Made by a program: the position numbers and the translations under genes. DNA of 64,000 nt from Candidatus Corynebacterium avicola (GTDB lineage: Bacteria > Actinomycetota > Actinomycetes > Mycobacteriales > Mycobacteriaceae), in NCBI GenBank assembly GCA_019114135.1, contig DXGC01000070.1, positions 1-64,000 on the forward strand, in the 5' to 3' direction. Position 1 is the stretch's first letter. The number at the start of each line of letters is the position of its first letter. The notes beneath the pieces are model-generated. The model made no database searches and was not told the origin of the DNA. It worked only from the letters and a program-made list of their open reading frames with translations. Below are positions 34,543 through 46,557 of this stretch, one piece after another.

Positions 34543-34720
34543 GGCACGAGGGTACTTCCTACGCCCTGGGGTCTCGGTGGCTAGTTGTCCAGTACCAGGT
34601 CGGGGACGATATGTGGATAAGTTATCCACTCGAAACTGGTCCCTTTCGGACGGGGCTGGCGTAGCGGTCCATCGACGTGGTTCACTAGCCGCATCATCGG
34701 GGGTACAGGGACGGGGAGAA

Positions 34721-43663: not shown

Positions 43664-44119
43664 ATGAAGCTGATCCTCACCGCCGCCGTCGACAACCTCG
43701 GTGTCCCCGGTGACATCGTCGAGGTCAAGGCCGGCTACGGACGCAACTTCCTGCTGCCGCGCGGCTACGCCATCCCCGCCACCCGTGGCGCGGAGAAGCA
43801 GGTGGAGAACATCCGCCGTGCACAGCAGGACAAGGTCATCCGCGACCTGGACCACGCTCGCGAGGTCAAGGCCGAGATCGATCACCTGAGCAACGTCACC
43901 GTCAACGTGCGTACCTCGGAGCAGGGCAAGCTGTTCGGCTCCGTCTCCGCCGAGGACGTCGCTGTCGCAGTCAAGGCCGCTGGCGGCCGCGAGCTGGACA
44001 AGCGCACCATCGTCCTCAACAAGGGTGACGTGAAGACTACCGGTTCCTACAACGTCGACATCAAGCTGCACCCGCAGGTTGTCGCGTCCCTGAACTTCAA
44101 GGTCGTCGCCGAGAAGTAG
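43664..44119 (+). CDS. rplI: 50S ribosomal protein L9
   Basis: MKLILTAAVDNLGVPGDIVEVKAGYGRNFLLPRGYAIPAT. Confidence 0.97.
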   Translation: MKLILTAAVDNLGVPGDIVEVKAGYGRNFLLPRGYAIPATRGAEKQVENIRRAQQDKVIRDLDHAREVKAEIDHLSNVTVNVRTSEQGKLFGSVSAEDVAVAVKAAGGRELDKRTIVLNKGDVKTTGSYNVDIKLHPQVVASLNFKVVAEK

Positions 44120-44373: not shown

Positions 44374-44421
44374 GTCCGCCCCCGGAGGAGTCGAACAGAC
44401 TCGTCCGGGGGCGGACTTTTT
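44374..44421 (+). terminator. Rho-independent terminator
   Basis: GTCCGCCCCCGGA...TCCGGGGGCGGAC followed by TTTTT. Confidence 0.85.
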
Positions 44422-44481
44422 GTGTGCAGAGGAGCGGTGGTCGGGTCGTGAAGTTGGTGTATGTGGGTCACCGAGGGGACG

Positions 44482-44895
44482 TTTTCCACACCTTGTCCAC
44501 ACTTTTCCACACCCAAGGTGGGGAGGTGTGGACAACTTGGGGAGATCCGTGCATAACATGCGCATAGTTCACCTTCTGGGCACATTCTGTTGACCTGCAA
44601 GTATGGCTGTGTCCCGCCGACTGACCTGTGGATATCGGCAGTTGTCCACCTTGTCATCGTGTAAATATATCCAACTGCGGACCTCTGACCTGCGTGTTTC
44701 TGAAAAGGCGCAGGTAGGGGAGGAGCTGTCCACAACTTGTGCACACAGCGAGCAGGAATGGAAGGTGAACATGCACACAAGGTCCACACATTGTCCACAA
44801 TCGATGTGGATAACCCGGAATCTCGGAGCGAAAATGGTGCTTCGTGAGCCGAAATCGGCCCCGTAAGCGGCATTGACTGAGGTCGATGTGGACAG
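44482..44895. promoter_or_regulatory. Cluster of DnaA-box-like 9-mers upstream of dnaB
   Basis: TTTTCCACA (44482, 44503), TTGTCCACA (44493, 44791), TGTGGACAA (44527), TGTGGATAT (44627), TTGTCCACC (44642), CTGTCCACA (44726), TTGTGCACA (44737), TGTGGATAA (44805), TGTGGACAG (44887). Confidence 0.7.
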
Positions 44896-45000
44896 CTGAT
44901 GTGCAGCCACGGCGACTTCCGTCAGGGGGACCGGTGCGGCGACCGGTGCGACGGCCTGCGGGGTCGTTTCCTGTCCGCCGCGGGTACTAAGATGACGGCC

Positions 45001-46557
45001 ATGAGTGCACAGGAGATGGGTAGCGCGGGATTCGGCGACGCCGAGGGGACGAGTGCGGTCCCGCTGCCGCCGGAGCCGGGCCCCTGGGACGACGAAGGTC
45101 CCTCGGGCAGCTTCGGCGACGATCCCGGCTTCGGGGGATCCGGGGGCGGTCGTGACGGTGGCAAGGGTCAGCGTCGCGGGAACTTCCAGCGTTCGGGACG
45201 CGGCGGCAATGATCCGGCCGACTTCGCCGAACCCCGCCAGATGCCCCAGAACACCGAGGCGGAGCAGGGCGTCCTCGGCGGCATGATGCTCAGCAAGGAC
45301 GCCATCGCCGACGTCGTCGAGCGGCTGCGTCCGGACGACTTCTACCGTCCCGCCCACCGCACGATCTACGAGACGATGCTGGAGCTCTACGGCGAGGGCA
45401 TGGAGGTCGACCCGGTCATCCTCGCCGGCCGACTCGACAACAACACCCTGCTCGACGTCATCGGCGGAGCCCCGTACCTGCACGAGCTGTCCTCGAAGGT
45501 GCCGACCGCGGCGAACGCCGGCTACTACGCCGACCTGGTCGCCGAGAAGGCCGTGCTGCGGCGCCTCGTCTCCGCCGGAACCAGGATCGTGCAGTTCGGC
45601 TACTCCGGGCTGGAGGGCCAGGAGCTGGAGAGCGTGGTCGACCGTGCCCAGCAGGAGATGTTCAACATCACCAACGAGTCCGCCAGCGAGGACTACATGG
45701 TGCTGCAGGACCTGCTCGAGTCCACCATGGACGAGCTGGACGCCCTGGAGAACGGCGTCGGTGAGGGAGAGGGCATCATGACCGGCTTCAGTGAGCTGGA
45801 CGAGATGACCAACGGCCTGCGCGGCGGCCAGATGGTCATCGTCGCCGCCCGACCCGGTGTCGGTAAGTCGACGCTGGCTCTGGACTTCATGCGTTCGGCG
45901 TCGGTGCAGCAGAACAAGGCTTCGGTGCTCTTCAGCCTGGAGATGAGCAAGTCCGAGGTGATGATGCGTGTCTTCTCCGCCGAAGCCGAGGTGCCGCTGT
46001 CGGTGATGCGCGGCGGCAAGATGAACGACTCCCAGTGGGACAAGCTGACCCGTCGTGTCACCGCGATCGAGAATGCGCCGATCTTCATCGACGACTCGCC
46101 CAACCTGACGATGACGGAGATCCGGGCGAAGGCGCGTCGACTGAAGCAGAAGCACGACCTGGGCCTGATCGTGGTCGACTACCTGCAGCTGATGAGCTCG
46201 GGCAAGAAGGTCGAGTCACGTCAGCAGGAGGTCTCGGAGTTCTCCCGTCAGCTCAAGCTGCTGGCCAAGGAGGTCGACGTGCCCCTGGTCGCCATCTCGC
46301 AGCTCAACCGTGGTGTGGAGTCCCGTGGCGACGACGCGCTGCCGAAGGTCTCCGACCTGCGTGAGTCCGGTTCGCTGGAGCAGGACGCCGACATCGTCCT
46401 GCTGATCAGCCGTCCGGACGCCCAGAACCGCGACCATGAGCGTGCCGGCGAGGCCGACCTGATCCTGGCGAAGCACCGTGGTGGCCCGATCGGCACCATC
46501 CAGGTCGCCCACCAGCTGCACTACTCGAAGTTCTCCGAGCTCAGCCGCGGGATCTAG
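45001..46557 (+). CDS. dnaB: Replicative DNA helicase DnaB (start may be 44992)
   Basis: PQNTEAEQGVLGGMMLSKDAI, AARPGVGKSTLALDFMR, GLIVVDYLQLMS. Confidence 0.96.
   Translation: MSAQEMGSAGFGDAEGTSAVPLPPEPGPWDDEGPSGSFGDDPGFGGSGGGRDGGKGQRRGNFQRSGRGGNDPADFAEPRQMPQNTEAEQGVLGGMMLSKDAIADVVERLRPDDFYRPAHRTIYETMLELYGEGMEVDPVILAGRLDNNTLLDVIGGAPYLHELSSKVPTAANAGYYADLVAEKAVLRRLVSAGTRIVQFGYSGLEGQELESVVDRAQQEMFNITNESASEDYMVLQDLLESTMDELDALENGVGEGEGIMTGFSELDEMTNGLRGGQMVIVAARPGVGKSTLALDFMRSASVQQNKASVLFSLEMSKSEVMMRVFSAEAEVPLSVMRGGKMNDSQWDKLTRRVTAIENAPIFIDDSPNLTMTEIRAKARRLKQKHDLGLIVVDYLQLMSSGKKVESRQQEVSEFSRQLKLLAKEVDVPLVAISQLNRGVESRGDDALPKVSDLRESGSLEQDADIVLLISRPDAQNRDHERAGEADLILAKHRGGPIGTIQVAHQLHYSKFSELSRGI

Follow-up and report, generated by a model that had tools for sequence, protein, structure and literature searches.

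The window, i.e., the whole 64-kb stretch of DNA analyzed here, contains an rpsF-ssb-rplI unit followed on the same strand by dnaB. The encoded DnaB shares 94% identity with the protein from Candidatus Corynebacterium faecigallinarum and 86% with that from C. glyciniphilum, which assigns the window to a Corynebacterium of this group. Between the end of rplI (44119) and the start of dnaB (45001), eleven DnaA boxes with no more than one mismatch to TTRTCCACA are spread over 414 bp (44482-44895). Four of these match TTRTCCACA exactly (44493+, 44527-, 44791+ and 44805-) and seven carry one mismatch (44482+, 44503+, 44627-, 44642+, 44726+, 44737+ and 44887-). The terminator-like hairpin at 44401-44416 sets the array apart from the rplI transcript. 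The following features are present:

43664-44119, plus strand: rplI, ribosomal protein L9, the left neighbor (TIGR00158, 127 bits)
44401-44416, plus strand: terminator-like hairpin with a T-run, ending the rpsF-ssb-rplI unit
44482-44511, plus strand: left half-array of three forward boxes at 44482 (TTTTCCACA), 44493 (TTGTCCACA) and 44503 (TTTTCCACA), spaced by 11 and 10 bp and incompletely conserved among relatives
44527-44535, minus strand: DnaA box TTGTCCACA, identical in each of the eight aligned species
44591-44598, plus strand: lone TGACCTGC half-site
44627-44635, minus strand: weak, non-conserved box ATATCCACA
44642-44650, plus strand: box E, TTGTCCACC; TTRTCCACS or a near variant is kept in much of the genus
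44652-44676, plus strand: AT-rich stretch (around gtgtaaatatatccaa), apparently weaker than its oriC counterpart
44686-44717, no strand: palindrome TGACCTGC-N16-GCAGGTAG with a 24-bp period, putative site for a dimeric protein
44726-44745, plus strand: boxes A (44726, CTGTCCACA) and B (44737, TTGTGCACA), 11 bp apart
44791-44799, plus strand: box C, TTGTCCACA, 54 bp after B
44805-44813, minus strand: box D, TTATCCACA, 14 bp from C and better conserved throughout the genus than any other box
44887-44895, minus strand: extra box CTGTCCACA, present in the closest relatives only
44988-44993, plus strand: -10-like TAAGAT, 7 bp before the dnaB ATG, with equivalents in relatives
45001-46557, plus strand: dnaB, replicative DNA helicase (TIGR00665, 501 bits)

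When zero, up to one or up to two mismatches are allowed, positions 44441 to 44900 contain 4, 11 and 17 boxes, respectively, compared with means of 0.02, 0.42 and 3.4 and maxima of 1, 5 and 10 in 2000 dinucleotide-preserving shuffles of the array stretch. The original prediction had described about eleven 9-mers resembling DnaA boxes in some 410 bp and had placed exact boxes at 44493, 44527, 44791 and 44805. The cluster is real, and all four positions are correct. As the means and maxima of the shuffles lie far below the counts in the array, the prediction also withstands comparison with shuffled sequence, which it had named as a possible refutation. A cluster that arose by chance or through base composition is ruled out by these shuffles, and the conservation of the boxes described below speaks against it as well, so that we give this explanation virtually no credence. 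In the whole window, 20 boxes with at most one mismatch were detected. Nine of them lie outside the array, where the best 414-bp stretch holds two, and the densest spot is formed by the head-to-head adjacent boxes TGTGGATAAgTTATCCACT at 34612-34630. Statements about the genome as a whole are based on pattern searches of the 3.1-Mb draft, which yielded 41 exact matches to TTRTCCACA versus 10 for the reversed control pattern. Ten of the exact boxes are found at the dnaA/oriC locus on contig C97 and four in the array before dnaB, while elsewhere no more than two occur close together. The dnaB array is the largest cluster of exact boxes outside the dnaA locus.

The original prediction had proposed to look for conservation upstream of dnaB in other corynebacteria, and indeed 35 of the 38 Corynebacterium dnaB loci studied carry four to eleven boxes in the gap adjoining the gene (median over all 38 loci, seven). 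The usual order in the genus starts with at least one reverse box at the left, followed by forward box E (TTRTCCACS or similar) and the forward pair A and B, 11 bp apart. Forward box C follows about 53-54 bp after B, and reverse box D, which usually reads TGTGGATAA on the plus strand, another 14-15 bp after C. Individual species lack one or another of these elements. Over all loci, neighboring boxes on the same strand are exactly 11 bp apart in 47 pairs and those on opposite strands 14 or 15 bp apart in 20. When eight species close to that of the window were aligned, invariant columns made up 52% of the positions in boxes versus 12% outside them (Fisher p = 3e-14). The boxes at 44527, 44642, 44726, 44737 and 44805 form the conserved core; those at 44493 and 44791 are partly conserved, and those at 44482, 44503, 44627 and 44887 are local additions. 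The layout supplies exact boxes and spacings for mutation. Outside of Corynebacterium, the 500 bp preceding the conserved part of dnaB were inspected in 29 other members of the class Actinomycetes. In 27 of them, this segment contains one or more boxes (59 in total), compared with one of 58 control windows taken from within dnaB. Small DnaA-box sites ahead of dnaB are therefore common throughout the class. They comprise one to four boxes in the members sampled outside of Corynebacterium, whereas typical Corynebacterium species combine 7-11 ordered boxes with a palindrome. The corynebacterial array is an enlarged version of the class-wide site.

Downstream of the array, most relatives have -10-like elements of the form TAnnnT, often only a few bases before the dnaB start codon. 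Measured from where box D begins, they lie at a distance of 46-71 bp in many relatives and of 96-183 bp in others, and a stricter -10 pattern was found in 13 of 20 relatives. A scan of the region with the standard sigma-70 consensus did not reveal a promoter, and the -10 assignment rests on the matches to TAnnnT. The position of TAAGAT, 7 bp before the dnaB ATG, predicts a leaderless transcript. This places the array upstream of the predicted promoter, where activators are usually found.

A close parallel comes from mycobacteria. The five regions bound most strongly by M. tuberculosis DnaA in vitro are oriC, rpmH-dnaA, the region upstream of dnaB (Rv0057), Rv0010c-Rv0011c and Rv3843c-RVnc0040, and the homologues of the same five regions were recovered by DnaA ChIP-seq in vivo in M. 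smegmatis (PMC7738170). In the DnaA I282T mutant, binding upstream of dnaB is weakened and dnaB is uniquely under-expressed (PMC7738170). The mycobacterial site, which next to oriC and rpmH-dnaA is among the few regions that DnaA binds strongly, resembles the array in its position before dnaB and in its cluster of DnaA boxes, and the array is most likely its corynebacterial counterpart. DnaA binding was measured at the mycobacterial site and is inferred for the copy in the window. A more distant likeness is offered by Caulobacter crescentus, a member of a different phylum, where dnaB belongs to the DnaA regulon and has predicted boxes upstream (Hottes 2005, cited in PMC8203912); the comparison covers regulon membership and the presence of upstream boxes. 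Literature searches for corynebacterial DnaA binding or expression data and for Streptomyces box clusters returned nothing relevant.

Taken together, the region 44482-44895 quite probably serves as a regulatory array to which DnaA binds and through which dnaB transcription is controlled. The phased boxes, with neighbors 10-11 bp apart and the inward-facing pair C and D 14-15 bp apart, would be occupied by DnaA molecules that oligomerize upstream of a promoter with its -10 element directly next to the dnaB start codon. At high DnaA levels, this oligomer most likely activates dnaB, a sign of regulation that is adopted from the one mycobacterial mutant, and a second, dimeric protein probably occupies the palindrome within the array. 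If dnaB were activated when DnaA is abundant, helicase supply would follow initiator activity. According to a passage in PMC5720831, mycobacteria have no identified homologues of known helicase loaders and DnaA regulators, and the same probably holds for their relatives. That an ordered DnaA array is conserved ahead of the helicase gene suggests a class-wide coupling of helicase supply to the level of the initiator. Such a site is known in kind from mycobacteria, and what is new is the ordered corynebacterial layout with its embedded palindrome. The array as such is real, conserved and largely explained, and it probably controls dnaB; its layout in Corynebacterium is more elaborate than that in mycobacteria. 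The three readings put forward in the original prediction are thus borne out in part: conservation, the promoter-like element that closes the array and the mycobacterial binding and expression data (PMC7738170) lend good support to a DnaA-controlled dnaB region, while a second region for initiation finds no such backing.

Three Corynebacterium species have no boxes beside dnaB. In these, the array still adjoins rplI and is separated from dnaB by an insert (L163:2998-4923, L164:3492-5369 and L162:1693-3521). The inserts in L163 and L164 contain a gene resembling glycoside hydrolase 15 (GH15)/trehalase on the dnaB strand, while the open frames in the L162 insert gave no Pfam match. With the array about 2 kb away from dnaB, direct promoter control in these species needs co-transcription with the insert. 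An array that outlasts this separation either continues to drive the operon or has an independent function. The retention at rplI despite the insert is the main reason for keeping in consideration that the array mainly serves as a DnaA reservoir or as a nucleotide-control site of the datA/DARS type close to the origin, its adjacency to dnaB being secondary. In line with this, the number of boxes, eleven, matches that at the genome's own oriC (10 between dnaA and dnaN, plus 6 upstream of dnaA). In addition, the array is probably located near the origin (dnaA and dnaB are about 58 kb apart in the complete relative G015) and would thus be duplicated soon after initiation. However, even distant members of the class keep boxes before dnaB, which points to the gene, and the mycobacterial mutant ties binding to dnaB expression (PMC7738170). 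The dnaB array shares with E. coli datA, DARS1 and DARS2 that it is a box cluster outside oriC. The E. coli sites, however, are defined by their effect on the nucleotide state of DnaA and by their need for IHF or Fis, whereas the array is likened to them by its boxes and precedes a replication gene. All in all, we regard a main role in titration or nucleotide control as unlikely. Titration as a side effect is possible and indeed likely for any such array, but no specific sign of DnaA-ATP hydrolysis or exchange emerged.

A different protein of similar preference could be considered as the main binder of the boxes, since some Corynebacterium genomes have GTTRTCCAC pairs with an 18-bp spacing in the vicinity of comEA-like, comM-like and DUF4192 genes and a similar sequence may thus be used elsewhere too. 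On the other hand, the array shares not only the box sequence but also the 10-11 bp phasing with oriC of the same genome, and its mycobacterial equivalent is bound by DnaA (PMC7738170), making a principal binder other than DnaA very unlikely. The pairs with a spacing of exactly 18 bp were observed in 10 of 61 genomes, with none for the reversed control, at L003/L193 (C33), L006/L208 (C34) and L008/L211 (C72) as well as at L198, L201, L204, L209 and L212. Their neighbors encode comEA-like (HHH/SLBB), comM-like (Mg_chelatase/ChlI) and DUF4192 proteins, and they may represent a separate tandem operator of competence-type genes, not a DnaA site. When the other close box pairs of the genome were compared with the additional mycobacterial DnaA sites (crgA and Rv3843c regions), no match emerged; Pfam assigned the adjacent genes as comEA-like, comM-like, DUF4192-like and others.

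Could the array be a second, initiation-competent origin? Its number of boxes and their phasing are orisome-like and comparable to those of the resident oriC between dnaA and dnaN, and a short AT-rich stretch is present at about 44652-44676. As the original prediction had anticipated, dnaA and oriC lie outside the window; they reside on another contig, C97, and the array is not adjacent to dnaA or dnaN. The same genome has a standard oriC. Along the G015 chromosome, the cumulative GC skew is still falling at dnaB (357 kb), turns near dnaA (415 kb) and reaches its minimum at 439 kb, and the GC-skew profile of the window likewise shows no clear reversal at the array. The lowest GC content over 40 bp has a median of 0.375 in dnaB arrays versus 0.30 in oriC gaps, and a promoter-like element and a gene follow directly downstream of the array. 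The skew in G015 and the normal oriC in particular render a second origin, as envisaged among the readings of the original prediction, extremely improbable.

The control region of dnaB contains more than DnaA boxes. Once the boxes were masked, TGACCTGC stood out as the best-conserved 8-base word of the array, found in 12 of 20 relatives versus 0.3 expected. It builds a 32-bp palindrome, TGACCTGC-N16-GCAGGTCA, between boxes E and A, with a period of mostly 24 bp and of 21 or 14 bp in some groups (equivalents in L015, L018, L019, L036, L044-L047, L054-L057 and L062). Scores of at least 14/16 were reached in 21 of 32 loci compared with 0.5% of shuffles, an excess that is inflated because the motif was derived from 20 of these loci. 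Among the 12 named loci added later, 10 scored at least 14/16, though several of them are closely related to the first set. The half-site TGACCTG occurs 23 times before dnaB versus 1.7 expected and 14 times in 30 oriC gaps versus 2.7 expected; it is not universal in the latter and is also about two-fold in excess in coding sequence. Since it lies beyond the rplI terminator and at a good distance upstream of the predicted dnaB start, the palindrome is more likely a DNA site than an RNA element. A search of Rfam for the latter gave nothing credible, the single match to a miRNA family being far below the gathering score. The palindrome is probably bound by a second, dimeric protein.

One might speculate that the phased DnaA array around the 32-bp palindrome constitutes a two-protein element, in which a dimeric regulator with half-sites (TGACCTG) enriched at oriC co-regulates initiation and helicase supply; we advance this tentatively and see the odds as somewhat against it. 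With half-sites that are enriched at oriC too, the palindrome hints at a possible new replication regulator that could be recovered with the DNA as bait. A genome-wide regulon defined by the palindrome was rejected, as few exact copies exist elsewhere and their number in several genomes does not exceed that of the control. The copy with an AT-rich loop is the one at dnaB in several genomes, two intergenic copies elsewhere did not reveal a common theme, and a literature search for the motif gave no match. Another palindrome, TATGCGCATA, was noticed in the C. glyciniphilum/C. variabile group (L045-L050, L055), flanked by the left reverse box and box E. Counted from DnaB residue 78, it is located at about -553 to -586, and the window has only ATGCGCAT at the corresponding site (about 44558-44565).
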